64,000 nt of DNA from Manis javanica (Eukaryota; Chordata; Mammalia; Pholidota; Manidae). The notes beneath the pieces are model-generated. The model searched no databases. It saw only the letters and a list, made by a program, of their open reading frames with translations, and had not been told where the DNA came from. Every line of letters starts with the position of its first letter. Position 1 is the stretch's first letter. The translations under genes were made by a program, and so were the position numbers. Location of the stretch: NCBI RefSeq assembly GCF_040802235.1, contig NC_133167.1:12578501-12642500 (forward strand). The letters run 5' to 3'. This document shows, piece by piece, positions 7,540 to 56,263 of this stretch.

Positions 7540-8270
7540 CACTTCATGGGTGAATCATCTAGGTCTGTGTAACAAACACCCCAGACTTAGTGGGCATGAT
7601 CACTGTTTTATTTGTTTAGATCTGGTGTCAGAGATTCAGGTAGGATTCAGCAGATCAGCACCTCAATGCTCTGTGATTTTAGGGGCCTCTGCTCGGCTGG
7701 CTGGTATGGCTGGGACTGGCTGGGATGGGCTGGGATGGGCTGGGACTGGCTGGGACTTGGCTGGGATGCGCTGGGACTTGGCTGGGATGGGCTGGGACTG
7801 GCTAGGACTTGGCTGGGGACGGCTGGGCCAGGCTGGGACTCTCACTCCTTGTGATCTTAGGGCCACTCACTGGGGGCTAGGAAATCCAAGATGGCCTCTC
7901 TCACATGTCTGGGGCCTTGGCACTGGCTGTTAGCTGGCAGGATTGGATTCCCCTCTGGGTGGTCACCTTCTCTCTCTCTCCTTCAGTAGTCTAGCCTGAC
8001 ATTTTTTGCATGGTAGCTGGCTTCAGAAGGCAAATATGAAAACTGCAAGTCTCTTAAGGGATAGGCTTGAAATTCACATAGCATCACTTGAGTTGCATTG
8101 TTCTGGGCAAAGCCAGGCACAGAGCCCACCCAGGTGCAAGGAGAGGGAGGTGAGGCTACTGGACATGCAGGGATGGGAGGGATGCTGGCAACCTCTTTGC
8201 AGACCATTTACCACCGGCTGTGGGCTTATTGACAATGGCAGGACCACCTTTTAAATTGAGACTGACCCTC
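7540..8270 (-). repeat. LTR-like (MaLR-type) relic with internal minisatellite
   Basis: The + strand begins 'gtgtaacaaacaccccagac ttagtgg', the typical reverse complement of a MaLR-type LTR 3' end, and later has 'ggaaatccaagatggcctc', also typical. The middle is interrupted by a GGGCTGG tandem repeat. Family assignment is approximate. Confidence 0.4.
7690..7850 (+). repeat. GGCTGGGA(C/T) minisatellite
   Basis: Roughly 14-15 units of 10-11 bp, mainly GGCTGGGATG and GGCTGGGACTT, with a few variants. All three + frames and the - strand are open across it, which explains the Gly/Trp/Leu-rich open frames. The G-runs could form a quadruplex on the + strand. Confidence 0.85.
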
Positions 8271-17230: not shown

Positions 17231-19646
17231 TTGTGTTCAAGAAAAACTGCATACCCGTGGCAATCACTTTATCTCAGAGCCACATGAAATTTCACTTTTC
17301 TGTAGATGGAAATCGGTGATCGGGCCCATTTGGGATCCTTTCCAACAGACGTATTACTAAGTTACCAGCCCACTGGCCTCCCTCTGAGGTGGTCTTGCAT
17401 TAAAAAAAGATCTCAAGACATGGATACCTAAAGACAGTATTATCCTGACTCTCCTGCACATTTACTTTCTCATTATTCTAGGGAGAAATGTTAGTATTCA
17501 GGTCTGGTTTCCTGAGCTTTAAGTTGGAGAGAAAAGTGCAGGAAGTGTGTTAGTTTAAATTCCCTGAGCATTCCTTTGCACCAGTGAGAAGTTACAGTTT
17601 TTGAATAGATACCTGTATTTAGCTGGTCCCATGGTGCCTGAAGAATTTAGGGCATGATTAAAAGAGTTGAAAGGAAGCAGTGTCAAAAGATGTAGAAAAT
17701 CTAGTGTGTCAAGACTGAAAACAGGATTTTAAGGTTTTGAGTTGCAGCAACTTACTCACAACTGCGCATCCTGTCAGATTTGGGCCAGTGAGGAAACATC
17801 TCTGGGAGAGAGCATTTGGCATTTAAGATAAAAAATTTTTGAACCTCAAGGAAAATGAGCAATTGCAATTACAATGGGCTGACAGGGCTTCTGGAAAATA
17901 GCTATTTTTATTCTTAATGAGATAGGACGTGACTGCACTGAGTAAGAAGTACATTTGGCTCAGCCATCTATGTCTCAGCTGTTTAGTTTCAGAATTGTGT
18001 TGACTGAACACAGTAAGCATTTTTTCACAGTTTTGATTGTGGTGATTAGAAACAAGTAAACAATGTGTGTATGTGTGTGTGCACACGCATGCATGTGTTC
18101 AGAGAGAGAACATTAATGTAGAATTGTATATTCTGTAGATCGTGGAATCCAATATACCCACATACGCTAGAAGTTTCTTCTTAGATCTCTTAAAAGCCTG
18201 ATGAGAAGTCCCAGTAACTAGAACAGCAAAGCTTGGCATGAATATGCCCATCTTCAAAGCAGCATTTCTAGTGAAGTTAAATTCCTTTCACTCTATTACC
18301 TTTGTTTAGAGCTCTGGTTGCTCACAGAGATAGAAATCACTGTGCATGTGTCATGTTTTCATTGGAAGGTGTGCTAGGGTGTTAACTAATTACTAGGCAA
18401 ACGAACATTAATTTCTAAGAGGTTTTCTTAAGCATGTTTGTTGATACTACAATTAAGCTATTTATAGTAATCTTTTCAAGCAGTTTCTCTCTGTAAAAGG
18501 GCAAACAGAATTTATAGAGATGGGACACCAGAGAACAGTGATCTTAGCTCTTTTGATAAGAATGTGGTGCTAATGAAAATACGATTCCCCCTAAGACCAG
18601 AAAAATGAATACCCAAATGTAAAAAAAAACAGCGATGAAGAATCCTCACCTTTGCCAGCTATCTCAAACTTGGGGCCCTTTATCATGAGATGAATTCGGT
18701 CAATGGGCAAAGACAGTTCAAGCCAAACTGATCGCTTGGTGATGATCATCCCCTCCTGGCAAAGAGTTGTCCTCTCTACCATCCTTGAATATGATGAGTT
18801 TCTTCTTAGTTAACAGAGAACTGACAATATGCCTCCTGATTTATCCCTGGCTTTACCTTGCAAATGCCAGGCATTAACTGCCGAAGCTAAAACTTCAAGG
18901 AAGCACAAAGAGAGCTTTGCCTGGGCTCACAGGAAGCGCAAGGTGTCCTGAATGCCCAGAGGACACACTGGGTTTGCTGGTTTCGGCCACACCTCCTGCC
19001 TTGGTGTTGGCAGGGGGCTTCCTCTGGGCATGGCCCCCCCTACGTTCAAGCACTCCATAAACATTCACTGATGAAGTCAAGAACAGTGAAGCCTGCCCTT
19101 TCAGGCCACATCAGAGCATCCCTCACCTTCCGTCCCACCCCGAGTATTAGCCATAGTTGGCCTAAGCTATGAATGGAGTAAAGGAGACTAACAGAAGTTT
19201 CTGATTATTTCTTCAATGCTTAAAATACATGTTTTCTAATTTATCAAGAGAACTTAACTACTGCTATTTTCCTCCATCCTTTTTTCCAGTGTATATTACT
19301 ACTGCTTAGAACTCTGTTGTCCCAGACCATCACACACCCAAAGCCAAGTGCTGTTAAAGACGCTTTTAAAATTTATAATCCTATAAAATTCTTTTTAAAG
19401 TTGATGATCTTCACTTTCAAAGGATCCTAATACCCAAATACCCAAATGTAAAGTGTTCCATTTCTTCTAGGGAATATACAAGAAATACAGCTTCCATGGC
19501 ACTAGGTAAAAATAGGTGGACATGGTAAACCAATTAAAGTGATATCATAAAGAATAGCTATTTTTTCCCCTAAAGAAGTCTGTTTGCTTTGGCTGGTCAA
19601 TGAGTACAGCAGAAACTAATTAGCTAGTTCATTTAGTCCATTACAT
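17231..19646. other. Gene-free stretch 5' of the L1 insertion
   Basis: Mostly unassigned. A short TG-rich run lies at 18,064-18,082. One minus-strand open frame at 18,591-18,782 has natural-looking composition and ends near a donor-like AAAG/GTGAGG; it is discussed as a finding. No other coding evidence. Confidence 0.4.
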
Positions 19647-19654
19647 TAACTTAA

Positions 19655-19661
<7 letters not shown>
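19647..19661 (+). repeat. L1 target-site duplication, left copy
   Basis: TAACTTAAATATTTT, identical to 25,843-25,857. It merges into the poly(T) tract, so its right edge is ambiguous by a few T. Confidence 0.9.

Positions 19662-19688
<27 letters not shown>
19662..19688 (-). other. L1 poly(A) tail (poly(T) on + strand)
   Basis: Uninterrupted T run on the + strand, continuous with T residues of the target-site duplication. A pure tail of this length points to a young insertion. Confidence 0.9.
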
Positions 19689-19691
<3 letters not shown>

Positions 19692-20353
19692 TTAAGTATG
19701 TATAGGTTTTAAACTACTAACTAATTTGCACACACATATTGACATAATAGGAATACGGTGACATAAACAAAGCAAATCTATAATCACCAGCCATCTCCAG
19801 TGAAGCCAAGAAAACCATTTAGGCACCCTAGGCATTTGTGAAAATTTATCTATGATATGATGGATATTTTCCAACTGTACTTGAACCATCAGACAAATTA
19901 AAGCAGCCCATTTCTGGGATCTGTTCACATCCCATATGTTCTTTTAACCATAGATAGTCTATAGTCATGAGATTTTGGGGTGCTACAACTTGCACCCCTC
20001 CCAACTCCTGGTTGAGTTCCAACAGTACAGATCCAGTCAAATTCGTTGTCTCACTGTATGCACATGCCAGCCTAGACATCTCCCTCCTCCTTCTCATGGC
20101 AAGTCCAGGAGATGGTGGGCTGGATGCAGCCACAACCGCAGCATCGTCCGGATCCCTGTGGAGGCTTTTTGATGATCATCCCCCGGCACGAGTCCTCCAG
20201 AGAGTGCTGATGCCGGAAGCTCCTCCTCATATCGTATCTTAGTTCATTTTCTGGGTATCCAAGCTAGGCCTTGATCTTCTGTTAGTCCATTTTTGGGTTC
20301 TGTAATTCTGCTGCTGTTTTGTTCCTTCAGTTTTTCCTTTGTTCCTATACTCC
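19689..20353 (-). other. L1 3' UTR, chimeric
   Basis: In sense, 20,353-20,279 is the usual mammalian L1 sequence after ORF2 (ggaacaaaggaaaaactgaa, then 'cccaaaaatggactaacag'). At about 20,278 it switches to sequence unlike the normal 3' UTR, about 590 nt long, that continues to the poly(A). The usual long G-rich tract is missing; a 17-nt purine tract is present instead at 20,079-20,095. There is no poly(A) run at the switch point, which argues against simple 3' transduction and for replacement of the 3' UTR. Confidence 0.75.
19690..20052 (-). pseudogene. Retroviral env transmembrane-subunit fragment in L1 3' UTR
   Basis: Endogenous-retrovirus relic of an envelope gene, in the same orientation as the L1. 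One frame (about 20,052-19,877) shows, in order, a leucine-rich heptad stretch, a region in the place of the immunosuppressive-type domain (Q-N before a T-I-D-Y-L motif), and the disulphide-loop region that is CX6CC in many retroviruses. Here the first cysteine of the final pair is glycine. After one frame change near 19,870 a second frame continues with a helical segment, a Trp-rich membrane-proximal part, a hydrophobic membrane span and a stop just before the poly(A). Surface subunit, fusion peptide and an intact frame are all absent, so it cannot encode a working envelope. The viral family was not determined. Confidence 0.65.
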
Positions 20354-23300
20354 TCAGATGAGTGAAATCATTTGGTATTTCTCTTTCTCCGCTTGGCTTA
20401 TTTCACTGAGCATAATACTCTCCAGCTCCATCCATGTTGCTGCAAATGGTTGGATTTTTCCACTTCTTATGGCTGAGTAGTATTCCATTGTGTATATGTA
20501 CCACATCTTCTTTATCCATTCATCTACCGATGGACATTTAGGTTGCTTCCAATTCTTGGCTATTGTAAATAGTGCTGCGATAAACATAGGAGTGCATCTG
20601 TCTTTCTCAAACTTGATTGCTGCGTTCTTAGGGTAAATTCCTAGGAGTGGAATTCCTGGGTCAAATGGTAGGTCTGTTTTGAGCATTTTGATGCACCTCC
20701 ATACTGCTTTCCACAATGGTTGAACTAATTTACATTCCCACCAGCAGTGTAGGAGGGTTCCCCTTTCTCCACAGCCTCGCCAACATTTGTTGTTGTTTGT
20801 CTTTTGGATGGCAGCTATCCTTACTGGTGTGAGGTGATACCTCATTGTAGTTTTAATTTGCATTTCTCTGATAATTAGCGATGTGGAGCATCTTTTCATG
20901 TGTCTCTTGGCCATCTGTATTTCTTTTTTGGAGAACTGTCTGTTCAGTTCCTCTGCCCATTTTTTAATTGGGTTATTTGTTTTTTGTTTGTTGAGGCGTG
21001 TGAGCTCTTTATATATTCTGGACGTCAAGCCTTTATCAGATCTGTCATTTTCAAATATATTCTCCCATACTGTAGGGTTCCTTTTTGTTCTATTGATGGT
21101 GTCTTTCGCTGTACAGAAGCTTTTCAGCTTAATGTAGTCCCACTTGCTCATTTTTGCTGTTGTTTTCCTTGCCCGGGGAGATATGTTCAAGAAGAGATCA
21201 CTCATGTTTATGTCTAAGAGGTTTTTGCCTATGTTTTTTTCCAAGAGTTTAATGGTTTCGTGACTTACATTCAGGTCTTTGATCCATTTTGAGTTTACCT
21301 TTGTATATGGGGTTAGACAATGGTCCAGTTTCATTCTCCTACATGTAGCTGTCCAGTTTTGCCAGCACCATCTGTTGAAGAGACTGTCATTTTGCCATTG
21401 TATGTCCATGGCTCCTTTATCAAATATTAATTGACCATATATGTTTGGGTTAATTTCTGGGGTCTCTAATCTGTTCCACTGGTCTGTGGCTCTGTTCTTG
21501 TGCCAGTACCAAATTGTCTTGATTACTATGGCTTTGTAGTAGAGCTTGAAGTTGGGGAGTGAGATCCCCCCTACTTTATTCTTCTTTTTCAGGATTGCTT
21601 TGGCTATTCGGGGTCTTTGGTGTTTCCATATGAATTTTTGAATTATTTGTTCCAATTCATTGAAGAATGTTGCTGGTAATTTGAGAGGGATTGCATCAAA
21701 TTTGTATATTGCTTTCGGCAGGATGGCCATTTTGACGATATTAATTCTTCCTAGCCATGAGCATGGGATGAGTTTCCATTTATTAGTGTCCCCTTTAATT
21801 TCTCTTAAGAGTGACTTGTAGTTTTCAGAGTATAAGTCTTTCACTTCCTTGGTTAGGTTTATTCCTAGGTATTTTATTCTTTTTGATGCAATGGTGAATG
21901 GAATTGTTTTCCTGATTTCTCTTTCTATTGATTCGTTGTTAGTGTATAGGAAAGCTACAGATTTCTGTGTGTTGATTTTGTATCCTGCAACTTTGCTGTA
22001 TTCCGATATCAGTTCTAGTAGTTTTGGAGTGGAGTCTTTAGGGTTTTTTATGTACAGTATCATATCATCTGCAAATAGTGACAGTTTAACTTCTTCTTTA
22101 CCAATCTGGATTCCTTGTATTTCTTTGTTTTGTCTGATTGCCGTGGCTAGGACCTCCAGTACTATGTTAAATAACAGTGGGGAGAGTGGGCATCCCTGTC
22201 TGGTTCCCGATCTCAGTGGAAATGCTTTCAGCTTCTCGCTGTTCAGTATAATGCTGGCTGTGGGTTTATCATATATGGCCTTTATTATGTTGAGGTACTT
22301 GCCCTCTATTCCCATTTTGCTGAGAGTTTTTATCATGAATGGATGTTGAATTTTGTCAAATGCTTTTTCAGCATCTATGGAGATGATCATGTGGTTTTTG
22401 TCTTTCTTTTTGTTGATGTGGTGGATGATGTTGATGGATTTTCGAATGTTGTACCATCCTTGCATCCCTGGGATGAACCCCACTTGGTCATGGTGTATGA
22501 TCCTTTTGATATACTGTTGAATTCTGTTTGCTAATATTTTATTGAGTATTTTTGCATCTACGTTCATCAGGGATATTGGTCTGTAATTTTCTTTTTTGGT
22601 GGGGTCTTTGCCTGGTTTTGGTATTAGGGTGATGTTGGCTTCATAGAATGAGTTTGGGAGTATTCCCTCTTCTTCTATTTTGTGGAACACTTTAAGGAGA
22701 ATGGGTATTATGTCTTCTCTGTGTGTCTGATAAAATTCCGAGGTAAATCCGTCCGGCCCCGGGGTTTTGTTCTTGGGTAGTTTTTTGATTACTGTTTCAA
22801 TTTCTTTGCTTGTAATTGGTTTGTTTAACTTTTGTGTTTCTTCCTTGGTCAGTCTTGGGAGGTTGTATTTTTCTAGGAAGTTGTCCATTTCTTCTAGGTT
22901 TTCCAGCTTGTTGGCATATAGGTTTTCATAGTAGTCTTTAATAATTCTTTGTATTTCTGTGGAGTCTGTCGTGATTTTTCCATTCTCATTTCTGATTATG
23001 TTGATTTGTGTTGACTCTCTTTTTCTCTTAATAAGTTGGGCTAGAGGCTTATCTATTTTGTTTATTTTCTCAAAGAACCAGCTCTTGGTTTCGTTGATTT
23101 TTGCTATTGTTTTATTCTTCTCAATTTTGTTTATTTCTTCTCTGATCTTTATTATGTCCCTCCTTCTGCTGACTTTAGGCCTCATTTGTTCTTCTTTTTC
23201 CAGTTTTAATAATTGTGATGTTAGACTATTCATTTGGGATTGTTCTTCCTTCTTCAAGTGTGCCTGGATTGCTATATACTTTCCTCTTAAGACTGCTTTT

Positions 23301-24196
23301 GCTGCATCCCACAGAAGTTGGGGCTTAGTGTTGTTGTTGTCATTTGTTTCTATATATTCCTTGATCTCTATTTTGATTTGTTCATTGATCCATTGATTAT
23401 TTAGTAGCATGTTGTTAAGCCTCCATGTGTTTGTGAGCCTTTTTGTTTTCTTTGTAGAATTTATTTCTACTTTCATACCTTTGTGGTCTGAAAAATTGGT
23501 TGGTAGAATTTCAATATTGTGGAATTTACTGAGGCTCTTTTTGTGAGCTAGTATGTGGTCTATTCTAGAGAATGTTCCATGTGCACTTGAGAAGAATGTA
23601 TATCCTGTTGCTTTTGGATGTAAAGTTCTATAGATGTCTATTAGGTCCATCTGTTCTAGTGTGTTGTTCAGTGCCTGTGTGTCTTTACTTATTTTCTGCC
23701 CGGTGGATCTATCCTTTGGGGTGAGTGGTGTGTTGAAGTCTCCTACAATGAATGCATTGCAGTCTATTTCCCTCTTTAGTTCTGTTAGTATTTGCTTCAC
23801 ATATGCTGGTGCTCCTGTATTGGGTGCATATATATTTAGAATGGTTATATCCTCTTGTTGGACTAAGCCCTTTATCATTATGTAGTGGCCTTCTTTGTCT
23901 CTTGTTACTTTCTTTGTTTTGAAGTCTATTTTGTCTGATATTAGTACTGCAACCCCTGCTTTCTTCTCACTGTTGTTTGCCTGAAATATGTTTTTCCATC
24001 CCTTGACTTTTAGTCTATGCTTATCTTTGGGTTTAAGGTGAGTTTCTTGTAAGCAGCATATAGATGGGTCTTGCTTTTTTATCCATTCTATTACTCTATG
24101 TCTTTTGATTGGTGCATTAAGTCCATTTACATTTAGGGTGACTATTGAAAGATATGTACTTATTGCCATTGCAGGCTTTAGATTCGTGGTTACCAA
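20354..24196 (-). CDS. ORF2: L1 ORF2p: endonuclease / reverse transcriptase
   Basis: Encodes the L1 enzyme that nicks the target and reverse-transcribes the element's RNA on the cut DNA (target-primed reverse transcription); it acts in an RNP with ORF1p. The 1,280-residue frame has no stops. The APE-type endonuclease occupies about 15-245, with N22, E51 (QETHL), Y123, D153/N155 (GDFN), D213 and H238 (SDH). The reverse transcriptase shows motif A D606 (SIDAEKAFD) and the FADD box D708/D709. The C-terminal Cys/His motif CX3CX7HX4C is at C1138, C1142, H1150, C1155. Human ORF2p is 1,275 residues and these positions are displaced by +6 to +8, so the first Met probably overextends; Met10 gives the usual N-terminal length. 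The downstream 3' UTR is the odd part, not the enzyme. Confidence 0.95.
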
Positions 24197-24364
24197 AGGT
24201 TCAAGGTTAGCTTCTTTAGTATCTTACTGCCTAACTTAGCTCGCTTATTGAGCTGTTATATACACTGTCTGTAGAGTCTTTTCTTCTCTCCCTTCTTATT
24301 CCTCCTCCTCCCTTCTTCATATGTTGTGTGTTTTGTTCTGTGCTCTTTTTAGGGGTGCTCCCAT

Positions 24365-25288
24365 CTAGAGCAGTCCCTGTAGGATGCCCTGTAGAGGTGG
24401 TTTGTGGGAAGCAAATTCCCTCAGCTTTTGCTTGTCTGGGAATTGTTTGATCCCACCATCATATTTAAATGATAGTCGTGCTGGATACAGTATCCTTGGT
24501 TCAAGGCCCTTCTGTTTCATTGCATTAAGTATATCATGCCATTCTCTTCTGGCCTGTAGGGTTTCTGTTGAGAAGTCTGATGTTAGCCTGATTGGTTTTC
24601 CTTTATAGGTGACCTTTTTCTCTCTAGCTGCCTTTAAAACTCTTTCCTTGTCCTTGATCCTTGCCATTTTAATTATTATGTGTCTTGGTGTTGTCCTCCT
24701 TGGATCCTTTCTGTTGGGGGTTCTGTATAATTCCATGGTCTGTTCGATTATTTCCTCCCCCAGTTTGGGGAAGTTTTCAGCAATTATTTCTTCAAAGACC
24801 CTTTCTATCCCTTTTCCTCTTTCTTCCTCTTCTGGTATCCCTATAATACGAATGTTTTTCCTTTTGTATTGGTCACATATTTCTCTTAGTGTTGTTTCAT
24901 TCCTGGAGATCCTTTTATCTCTCTCTATGTCAGCTTCTATACGTTCCTGTTCTCTGGCTTCTATTCCTTCAATGGCCTCTTGCATCTTATCCATTCTGCT
25001 TATAAATCCTTCCAGGGATTGTTTCACTTCTGTGATCTCTTTCCTGACATCTGTGATCTCCTTCCGGACTTCATCCCACTGCTCTTGCATTTTTCTCTGC
25101 ATCTCATCCCACTGCTCTTGCATTTTTCTCTGCATCTCATCCCATTGCTCTTGCATTTTTTTCTGCATCTCTGTCAGCATGTTCATGATTTTTATTTTGA
25201 ATTCTTTTTCAGGAGGACTAGTTAGGTCTGTCTCCTTCTCAGGTGTTGTCTCTGTGATCTTTGTCTGCCTGTAGTTTTGCCTTTTCAT
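24365..25288 (-). CDS. ORF1: L1 ORF1p: trimeric RNA-binding chaperone
   Basis: Encodes the 307-residue nucleic-acid chaperone that coats L1 RNA as a coiled-coil trimer. Order: short basic N-terminus (1-30), coiled coil (about 33-140), RRM domain (about 143-235, with NIRIIGIPE at 145-153 and HIIIKMA at 203-209) and C-terminal domain (about 235-293, with YPARLSF at 268-274). The frame is intact and the RRM/CTD residues expected of an active element are present. The coiled coil contains three direct copies of an 11-residue unit at 40-50, 51-61 and 62-72 and a further 7-residue duplication (74-87). At 307 residues it is shorter than human ORF1p (338), despite the repeat. ORF1 and ORF2 are separated by 168 nt. 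Confidence 0.95.
   Translation of the reverse strand: MKRQNYRQTKITETTPEKETDLTSPPEKEFKIKIMNMLTEMQKKMQEQWDEMQRKMQEQWDEMQRKMQEQWDEVRKEITDVRKEITEVKQSLEGFISRMDKMQEAIEGIEAREQERIEADIERDKRISRNETTLREICDQYKRKNIRIIGIPEEEERGKGIERVFEEIIAENFPKLGEEIIEQTMELYRTPNRKDPRRTTPRHIIIKMARIKDKERVLKAAREKKVTYKGKPIRLTSDFSTETLQARREWHDILNAMKQKGLEPRILYPARLSFKYDGGIKQFPDKQKLREFASHKPPLQGILQGLL
25029..25169 (-). repeat. Tandem repeats inside ORF1 coiled coil
   Basis: Three 33-bp direct repeats (25,071-25,103; 25,104-25,136; 25,137-25,169), the first two identical and the third with two visible changes, encode an 11-residue hendecad. Next to them, two 21-bp units (25,029-25,049; 25,050-25,070) encode a heptad. All are in frame. 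Confidence 0.9.
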
Positions 25289-25842
25289 GGTGATAGAGAT
25301 AGTCTGCAGAGCTGGTACAAGTGACCGCTGGAAGAGCTTCCCTTCTTGTTGGTTTGTAGCCTTTTCCTGGGAGAATAGCGACCTCTAGTGGCTTGTGCTG
25401 GGCAGCTGTGCGCAGACAGGGCTTCTGCTTCCTGCCCAGTTGCTTTGGGGTTTATCTCCACTGTTGCTGTGGGCTTGGCCTGGCTGGGGCTGTTCCTCCA
25501 AAATGGTGGAGCCCCGTTAGAGGGGGAGCAGCCAGGAGACTATTTATCTCCGTAAGGGGCCTCTGTGCTCCCTGCTGCCCAGGGGGTTAGAGTGCCCAGA
25601 GATCCCCAGATTCCCTGCTTCTGGTCTAAGTGACCTGTCCTGCCCCTTTAAGATTTCCAAAAAGCACTCCCCTTCACAAGGCGCTGGGTTCTTGCAGGTG
25701 TGGATGTGGTCTGGATGTTGTCCTGTGTCCTGTGGTCTCTATTTTAGGAAGATTTTTCTTTGTTATATTTTCATAGCTCTATGTGTTTTTGGGAGGAGAT
25801 TTCCACTGCTCTACTCACGCCGCCATCTTGGCTCCCGCCCCC
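25289..25842 (-). promoter_or_regulatory. L1 5' UTR / internal promoter
   Basis: 554 bp upstream of ORF1, GC-rich, beginning at the TSD. This is the expected place of the internal RNA polymerase II promoter. It is shorter than the roughly 900-bp human 5' UTR, and no tandem monomer structure is seen. Confidence 0.75.
25819..25830 (-). promoter_or_regulatory. YY1 site at L1 5' end
   Basis: In sense, CAAGATGGCGGC lies 13-24 nt from the start of the element. It matches the YY1 consensus and occupies the position where YY1 directs accurate initiation in human L1. Confidence 0.75.
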
Positions 25843-25857
25843 TAACTTAAATATTTT
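25843..25857 (+). repeat. L1 target-site duplication, right copy
   Basis: TAACTTAAATATTTT, identical to the left copy at 19,647-19,661, directly abutting the first G of the element on the minus strand. Confidence 0.95.
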
Positions 25858-26135
25858 AAAGTTATTATAATACCATGACATTTTCCCCATAAACAAATAC
25901 TATATATCCCTAAAAAGTAAGGACATTTTTCCTGCTTGACCACAATACGTTATCACAAGTAACAAAGTAATAGTAATTCTTTGGTTGTATTTAGTGTTCT
26001 TCATCTCCTCCCCACCCCCCACCAAATTTCCCCAATTGTCCCTAAATGTTGTTTACAGTTGATTTGAATCAGTCAAGGTCCACACATTGCATGTGGTTGT
26101 CTCTTACATCTCTTTTAATCTAGAATTGCCCCCTC
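25858..26135 (-). repeat. Old L1 (L1M-like) 3' region
   Basis: The + strand has 'ttgatttgaatcagtcaagg tccacacattgcatgtggttg' and 'cttttaatctagaattgcc', the antisense of an old L1 3' region. The young L1 lies next to it. Confidence 0.5.
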
Positions 26136-34581: not shown

Positions 34582-35313
34582 ATGGACGGGACACGAGAGC
34601 CTCTGGTCATGACTGTCCACCTCCTTGCCAACTCTGGGCATGGCTCACTTTTGCAGCAAACCCTGGACCAGCTCCTGGACTGTATTTGCCCAGAGGTCCG
34701 TCTCTTTCTGGTGTCAGAGAGGGTCAGTCCACTGAAATACGACGACAAGTGCCACTCCAGGCGGTCACGGTTCCCGGGGATGTCTGTTTTGCTCTTCCTG
34801 CATGAAGGCCTTGGAGAGGGGAGGCTGTTCCGCGTTCTTGACTCCCTTCGGCACTGGCCATGGCAGTGCCACCCTGCAGGGAACCTGCAGGGACGACCGT
34901 GTCCCTACATGCTTGCCAGTCAGGAGTTCTACAGTCTGGACAGCCAGATGCCCGTCTGGGGTGTGCGGCAGGCGCCCAGTGGCACTGAGATCCTGAGAGT
35001 GACGCTCTACTGCAGTTTTGATAACTACGAGGATGCCATCAGACTCTATGAGATGATCCTGCAGAGGGATGCCACCCTGCAGAAGAGCAACTTCTGTTTC
35101 TTTGTGCTCTATGCCACTGAGAGCTTTGCTCTGCAGCTCTCCCTGAAGCAGCTGCCCCTTGGGATGTCGGTGGACCCCAAAGAGTCGTCGGTGCTACAGT
35201 TCAAGGTTCAGGAGATCGGCCAGTTAGTGCCTCTTCTGCCTCACCCGTGTATCCCCATCAGCCACACCAGGTGGCAAACACAGGACTATGATGGCAACAA
35301 GATTTTGCTTCAG
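34582..35313 (+). CDS. FAM124B: FAM124B coding exon 1 (residues 1-244)
   Basis: First coding exon of FAM124B, family with sequence similarity 124. The translation is recognisable over its whole length as the mammalian protein: MTVHLLANSGHGSLLQ at about 10-25, the conserved LDQLLDCICPEVRLF, and CSFDNYEDAIRLYEMILQR near residue 150. This is the conserved FAM124 domain, with the C-terminal part encoded by exon 2. The start ATG has G at -3 and G at +4. The exon ends after Leu-Gln at a phase-0 donor (CAG/GTATTC). FAM124B has been reported to associate with chromatin remodellers CHD7 and CHD8; its biochemical activity is not known. Frame intact, no odd residues. The frame reads through the donor for 16 more codons to a stop at 35,362-35,364. 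Confidence 0.93.
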
Positions 35314-35394
35314 GTATTCCAGTTTTGCTTCTATGATCTTATAGATGCACATGGCACTGTGTGATTTTGCATCCCAGACGGCTCTTAGAGATAT

Positions 35395-55902: not shown

Positions 55903-55963
<61 letters not shown>

Positions 55964-56031
55964 TGCTGTCTGTCTGCCTGCGTGGGATGCACAGGGCTTT
56001 AGCAGGATCATACTAATCAGTATGTCTGAGG

Positions 56032-56078
<47 letters not shown>

Positions 56079-56146
56079 TGCTGTCTGTCTGCCTGCGTGG
56101 GATGCACAGGGCTTTAGCAGGATCATACTAATCAGTATGTCTGAGG

Positions 56147-56195
<49 letters not shown>

Positions 56196-56263
56196 TGCTG
56201 TCTGTCTGCCTGCGTGGGATGCACAGGGCTTTAGCAGGATCATACTAATCAGTATGTCTGAGG
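55903..56263 (+). repeat. Three-copy compound minisatellite
   Basis: Three (GT)n runs (55,903-55,962; 56,034-56,077; 56,149-56,194), each followed by a 69-71-bp spacer that begins ctgctgtctgtctgcctgcg and ends tcagtatgtctgagg. The spacers are identical apart from one or two bases at the junction, so the duplication is recent. The period is about 115-117 bp. Thr-His and Cys-Val frames here are artefacts. Confidence 0.95.

Follow-up and report, generated by a model that had tools for sequence, protein, structure and literature searches.

How does an autonomous L1 element come to end in sequence of a retrovirus, and does it go on multiplying once it has done so? The locus that raises this question lies in Manis javanica, in a stretch of 64,000 nucleotides (NC_133167.1, positions 12,578,501 to 12,642,500 of the forward strand; the window, numbered from its first base). 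On its minus strand is an L1 whose own 3' untranslated region (UTR) gives way to sequence resembling the transmembrane subunit (TM) of a retroviral envelope (env). In our account, which we favour by a modest degree, 3' transduction and splicing within the 3' UTR gave an autonomous L1 a retroviral RNA's 3' end in place of its own functional one, and among the active L1s of the host this spliced hybrid has become a successful one, perhaps even the main one.

The L1 looks full-length and is flanked by target site duplications (TSDs). An earlier note, made from the sequence alone, had described an intact L1 inside TSDs with about 75 nt of its own 3' UTR and then about 590 nt of unrelated sequence up to the A run. 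This description holds: the TSD sequence TAACTTAAATATTTT occurs at both 19647 and 25843, enclosing the element, the two open reading frames (ORFs) are both open with the expected L1 Pfam domains, and the switch lies at 20278/20279. The L1 RNA-binding domain of ORF1p, the endonuclease and reverse transcriptase of ORF2p, the A tail, the TSD and frequent 5' truncation (8 of the 39 other copies described below) all place it in LINE-1. The mammalian L1 3' UTR usually has a G-rich tract and is dispensable for retrotransposition; here, in the window copy and in the 39 others, only the first 75 nt of such a UTR are present. A search of 19600-25900 against Rfam at gathering thresholds gave no match, and no further copies of the retroviral unit were found elsewhere in the window.

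What has taken the place of the 3' UTR? Judged by its matches, the segment is degenerate retroviral env TM sequence, and the likeness is real. The piece at 19849-20175 matches the fusion TM of avian sarcoma and leukosis virus (ASLV) in the Protein Data Bank (PDB) over residues 40-103 (4jpr and 5h9c, E 1.4e-6 and 1.5e-6). A profile of nine relatives matches ASLV TM at 1.4e-13, the GP2 ectodomain 4n21 at 4.9e-6 and, more weakly, other GP2 chains and syncytin-2; spike glycoprotein chains, which came up in that search at E above 1 only, were taken as chance. With tblastn the relatives span 20166-19695 in two frames, and the frame changes in the window where 11 nt are deleted between 19888 and 19887. 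The earlier note had proposed an env TM subunit in two frames and in L1 sense, with a translated profile search as its check; these matches bear out the proposal, and the similarity was there to be found.

By reading, the order of domains in 19695..20166 is a fusion-peptide region, NLT at the start of the heptad repeat, a Cys loop, a second heptad region, a membrane span and a tail. The similarity to alpharetrovirus TM covers the heptad repeat and the Cys loop. ASLV-type TM is characterised by an internal fusion peptide between two Cys and an N-glycan site at the start of the first heptad repeat (PMC3758190; this and the other papers cited are drawn on through the passages available). In the window NLT is present and the first fusion-peptide Cys is absent; a Cys pair is seen by eye in two related proteins, P0054 and P0084. 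The CX6CC motif reads C-x6-G-C, with the second Cys of the loop lost, and the window env piece is therefore a relic and not a working member. Some results speak against the env identity. Pfam names no family for five window pieces of the segment, TLV_coat is reached by one of the nine relatives only, at 0.016, and the second open env piece alone has a best PDB match of E 1.1.

Is the hybrid a single accident or a family? The host genome was searched with a query that spanned the junction, and the best 40 of 1170 candidates were scored, one of them being the window copy. With the junction in the query the top matches favour junction-bearing copies; the size given here for the subfamily is therefore a lower bound, its total number and other forms lying beyond this search. 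All 40 run from the end of ORF2 across the junction at 95-100% identity, and the junction aligns without a gap in each. By match start, 31 of the 39 other copies reach the 5' UTR. Both ORFs are open in 16 of the 39, each 98.8-99.9% identical to the window copy and with an ORF2-size frame of 1271 aa. Within the env segment the other copies differ from the window by 0.0 to 3.9% substitutions, and the frame-breaking 11-nt deletion is present in 30 and absent in nine. That near-identical copies share a broken env frame indicates that they were made recently, with env already broken, and since the frame is broken in these 30, including the youngest, the env code is a passenger.

Target site repeats were checked in three 5'-truncated copies, the 5' ends of most long copies falling outside the fetched stretches. 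An exact repeat flanks L1 and unit together in two of these (16 nt in L019/L049 and 15 nt in L037/L050); in the third, L042/L051, the flanking repeat agrees at 12 of 13 nt by eye, with a longest exact word of 9 by script. Enclosed by repeats in all three, L1 and retroviral unit therefore move as one. The hybrid is a young L1 subfamily, apparently active in recent times. The earlier note had suggested that the new 3' UTR may have founded a subfamily, and this is supported in so far as the scored matches share it. Its proposed genome check succeeded in part: at least 40 copies sharing the junction, the window included, were found, and the donor endogenous retrovirus (ERV) was not.

Does the subfamily end where the window copy ends? 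Seven copies fetched with 1.5 kb flanks (L002-L008, the same copies as L009-L015) continue in near-identical sequence for about 956 nt beyond the position of the window A run, which rules out the end of the window copy as the 3' end of the subfamily. The other 32 copies, read about 150 nt past the match, also continue beyond this position. The window copy is therefore 3'-shortened. From junction to tail the unit measures 1,546-1,548 nt in all seven copies read through, and it ends in an A tail. It consists of env TM up to a stop, some 600 nt, and then an end like that of a long terminal repeat (LTR) with AATAAA. In the unit of L002 the env frame stops at 620, after ...QEDMSKK, as it does in the related proteins P0010 and P0020; TGTGGGATC follows at 1224, after an A-rich stretch ending GGAGAAA, and AATAAA lies at 1523, 18 nt before the tail (position computed on L002). 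The last 323 nt may thus represent the U3-R part of an LTR. The earlier note had held that the new 3' UTR supplies its own 3' end; the AATAAA before the tail agrees with this, and the poly(A) of the window copy comes earlier than the 3' end of the read-through copies. No AATAAA or ATTAAA precedes the early end of the window copy in 19660-20354, the weak hexamers near it being TTTAAA at 19713 and others further off. The shortening is comparable with that of SVA elements, for which 3' shortening at cryptic or weak polyadenylation signals is known (PMC12593883).

How, then, was the old 3' UTR lost? One older copy, L048, which adjoins L033 and continues into it, looks like a missing link between an ordinary L1 3' UTR and the hybrid. 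Compared with the young copies its ORF2 tail and 75-nt stretch are 94.8% identical and its unit 85%, or 88.5% in the part of the unit that lies in L033. After the 75 nt, which end in GGACTAACAG, L048 goes on as GTACCAAAGGG, and 365 nt bounded by GT...AG stand between this stretch and the unit. They open with GTACCAAAGGGAAAGGG, have G-rich runs, reach GATTAATGAT and then A11 (at offset 261), and close with 93 nt ending TTTGTGTTTATTCAG. The first part we take to be the usual mammalian L1 3' UTR, and A11 is an internal A run of the kind that 3' transduction leaves, seen in this one copy. Excision of the 365 nt yields the young junction. The GT/AG register, as in the human spliced integrated retrotransposed elements (SpIREs), is here one of four equally good breakpoints in a single copy (10 mismatches in 80), and the acceptor side is a T-rich stretch ending TTCAG. 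From the lack of poly(A) at the switch the earlier note had argued for template switching or recombination in place of 3' transduction. That argument is not supported: L048, with 3' UTR and A11 between the two parts, fits 3' transduction and later splicing.

We consider it probable that the hybrid arose by 3' transduction of the 3' end of an ERV, followed by splicing and retrotransposition of the spliced RNA. An L1 copy would have lain directly upstream of the env TM part of an ERV, in the same sense, and its RNA would have continued past the L1 end into the ERV, stopping downstream, probably at the AATAAA of the LTR. Retrotransposition of this RNA would have been an ordinary 3' transduction, with the order L1 3' UTR, A run, ERV 3' end, A tail. 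The donor ...ACAG/GTACC in the L1 3' UTR would then have been spliced to ...TTTATTCAG/AGG before env, taking out the old 3' UTR and the internal A run (365 nt in L048), and the spliced RNA, retrotransposed in its turn, would have founded the subfamily. In the donor ERV, sequence upstream of AGGATCAAAGCC would correspond to the 3' part of the L048 intron. The shared junction, the copies with both ORFs open, the unspliced form in one older copy and the repeats that bound L1 and unit in the three copies checked are direct observations; read-through, splicing and an ERV LTR as the source of the 3' end are what we infer from them.

Several points weigh against this account. L048 is the single unspliced copy seen, and the splice step rests on it. 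The CAG at both edges of its 365 nt is a microhomology of 3 nt, so that a deletion of DNA could give the same product. Its L1 part is closer to the young copies than its unit is, perhaps because sequence outside the ORF changes faster, or because the copy is a mosaic. The 93 nt that lead from A11 to the acceptor have no assignment, and the donor ACAG/GTACCA departs from the full consensus. With the junction-spanning genome query no donor provirus carrying this env and LTR was found; about 600 nt separate the env stop from the putative LTR start, and the LTR is called on a TG start after the A-rich GGAGAAA stretch together with the polyadenylation signal. In addition, a piece of P0088 from upstream of the fusion peptide, compared with 20150-20400 as a boundary between surface subunit and TM, did not score above shuffled peptides, and homology of this boundary upstream of 20166 was rejected; family proteins nonetheless match up to 20230, in another frame (tblastn).

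The main rival shares the ancestral 3' transduction and replaces the splice by a deletion of the 365 nt from DNA at the CAG microhomology. Shifting the breakpoints by -3 to 0 leaves the fit equally good, as such a deletion would have it, but the register that is precisely GT...AG, behind the T-rich stretch, is one of them, and retrotransposition of L1 RNA after splicing has been documented in man (PMC5860796); we regard a deletion as unlikely. Could the two parts have been joined in one step, by template switching between ERV RNA and L1 RNA in reverse transcription? The L1 reverse transcriptase does form chimeras, and one related protein, P0026, is a U6 chimera of the env piece of this very family. 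However, a single switch leaves unexplained why L048 has a normal 3' UTR and an A run exactly between the parts. We set it aside as the origin after reading L048 and now think it quite improbable.

Two further explanations would dispense with the hybrid altogether, and we give hardly any credence to either. Were the env-bearing copies an ERV family that lies beside an L1 in the window by accident, the long env frames kept by P0010, P0020, P0031 and P0033 would be expected, but not the end of ORF2 upstream of one and the same junction in every scored match, nor 5' truncation with target site repeats. Incidental adjacency is refuted for the fetched copies, whereas older rows of the env-piece tree described below may be L1 or ERV. 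The segment might instead be an ordinary ancient L1 3' UTR with a chance likeness to env, an alternative that the earlier note had raised and with which the lack of a Pfam match for the window pieces would agree. Against it stand the ASLV TM matches, stronger still with relatives, the 90 related proteins, some with TLV_coat and three from turtle records, and the normal L1 3' UTR carried by L048; as far as sequence allows, a likeness by chance is refuted.

The related proteins come from a protein collection that favours open frames. With the first open env piece as query, 32 relatives were found among 35 candidates, and a profile search, with 7,991 candidates scored, found the 90 at a threshold of E 0.001, mostly from contigs shorter than 1.5 kb (sources ena and lgn). 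An env-piece tree was made of 84 rows (83 of the 90 proteins and the window; P0063, P0072, P0076, P0077, P0079, P0087 and P0090 left out) and 95 columns; because the columns are so few and 56 of the 81 inner branches are open, it was used for broad groups only. A loose pattern, under which 28 of the 90 proteins went unscored, finds CX6CC retained in a 57-protein clade by 7 of the 23 basal rows and 1 of the 34 derived ones; among the 33 proteins outside the clade, 9 retain it. P0026, on a long branch within the 12-row group that contains the window (SH-aLRT 81), starts with U6 snRNA (34 of 35 residues, with a score of 179 where 500 shuffles reached 45 at most) joined to the env-like piece. Template switching to U6 is reported to give chimeras both with L1 RNA and with mRNAs that L1 has mobilised (PMC4476161), and P0026 therefore shows the L1 machinery acting on env-bearing RNA; alone it is no demonstration of linkage between the env piece and L1.

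Other members of the collection differ in kind. In P0090 an env membrane-span piece continues in frame into L1 ORF1 (67% to window ORF1p); a truncated L1 has here been attached behind env sequence. A 49-aa piece resembling the 3' UTR of the window L1, P0067, is deposited as a hypothetical protein in an assembly of Clostridioides difficile whose longest contig has 974 nt, and is probably contamination with host DNA. P0054, P0084, P0088, P0089 and others are ERV-like TM pieces of greater divergence, and in some of them Cys residues flank a hydrophobic stretch; they suggest that ERVs of the sampled hosts include env of the ASLV type, which in 2013 was regarded as confined to alpharetroviruses (PMC3758190). 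Nothing was found in viral contigs searched with the env piece, two alignments and a junction pattern, in the genome contigs collection searched with an alignment and the env piece, or in the phage collection, and an antisense junction peptide had no match in the protein collection.

Table 1. Features of the hybrid L1 in the window
Feature	Position	Strand	Remarks
L1 element	25,842-19,660	minus	5' end 25842, 3' A run about 19660-19688; TSDs and 39 matched other copies
TSD, 3' side	19647..19661		final bases overlap A/T run
TSD, 5' side	25843..25857		
ORF1, 307 aa	24365..25288	minus	Pfam Transposase_22 4.5e-25, Tnp_22_dsRBD 3.7e-20
ORF2, 1271 aa from ATG	20354..24169	minus	Pfam RVT_1 5.8e-47, Exo_endo_phos 3.3e-24
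Retained start of L1 3' UTR, 75 nt	20279..20353	minus	ends GGACTAACAG, putative splice donor exon end
Junction of L1 3' UTR and retroviral unit, putative splice junction	20278..20279	minus	gapless in window and 39 copies; GT...AG in L048
Retrovirus-derived 3' UTR part of window copy	19689..20278	minus	590 nt of the unit of about 1,547 nt
Poly(A) of window copy	19660..19688	minus	premature relative to other copies
Env TM similarity, two frames	19695..20166	minus	PDB and profile matches, tblastn of relatives
First open env piece, 109 aa	19849..20175	minus	matches ASLV fusion TM
Second open env piece, 83 aa, with membrane span	19695..19943	minus	tblastn of relatives
Site of 11-nt deletion	19887..19888	minus	common to 30 of 39 other copies

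The 5' part of the element varies as well. The first 170 nt of the window L1 (25672-25842) are unlike many young copies (L009, L016, L024, L027 and L044 were compared), in which the 5' UTR is longer and contains repeats spaced by about 139 nt; L016 and L024 are without L1 bases 175-327. The forms of the L1 5' UTR thus vary, perhaps through splicing too. Near the 5' end of ORF1 there is a 33-nt repeat in three copies (25071-25171). Elsewhere in the window are a minisatellite of units of about 115-117 nt built on GT runs (55903-56263), a TGGCTGGGA-type minisatellite within an ORF (7707-7840) and a 260-aa ORF (34582-35364) that may be FAM124B-like.

What known systems does the hybrid resemble? 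SVA elements are non-autonomous and are mobilised by L1, and L1 3' transduction families carry flanking DNA behind the L1 3' end. The hybrid likewise carries flanking DNA but differs from these families in having lost most of its own 3' UTR and its polyadenylation site, so that the transduced part is its only 3' end. By construction SVA is the nearest analogue, with the retroviral end of SINE-R sitting here on an autonomous L1. SINE-R is made of HERV-K10 sequence, the end of env together with the 3' LTR (PMC12593883); in the unit env and AATAAA are present, and its LTR is putative. SVA is hominid-specific, whereas the carrier of the hybrid is a complete L1 with both ORFs, and its env is ASLV-like. 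The hybrid is not an SVA composite, which is non-autonomous and made of hexamer, Alu-like, variable number tandem repeat and SINE-R modules: here an L1 with both ORFs is the carrier, no search having been aimed at the remaining modules.

The human SpIREs are retrotransposed spliced L1 RNA, as the hybrid would be. SpIREs, however, are spliced on the 5' side, lose sequence of the 5' UTR and ORF1, and are generally dead ends (PMC5860796), whereas the putative splice of the hybrid lies in the 3' UTR and its product multiplied. U6/L1 chimeras (PMC4476161, PMC13174262) are likewise hybrid insertions of L1 and another RNA; in the U6 chimeras the foreign RNA lies 5' of a truncated L1, whereas the hybrid has its foreign part on the 3' side and a subfamily has inherited it. 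L1 hybrids with other RNAs have been catalogued, and 5' UTR swaps speculated upon (PMC13174262). Mammalian L1 lineages do recruit new 5' UTRs (PMC5872511), a modular replacement of the same kind, although the hybrid swaps its 3' end instead. In the titles and abstracts found in the open PMC literature an L1 with an env-derived 3' UTR is undescribed; Repbase and Dfam, which were outside this search, may catalogue the family. One genome, with a likely intermediate retained, would then record how an L1 exchanges its 3' UTR for a foreign one and prospers. This makes testable both the natural need for the usual L1 3' UTR with its G-rich tract and the benefit of a borrowed polyadenylation signal, and it bears on the origin of SVA-like composites. 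If our account is true, a SINE-R-like end can be carried by L1 itself, and a spliced L1 product need not be a dead end.
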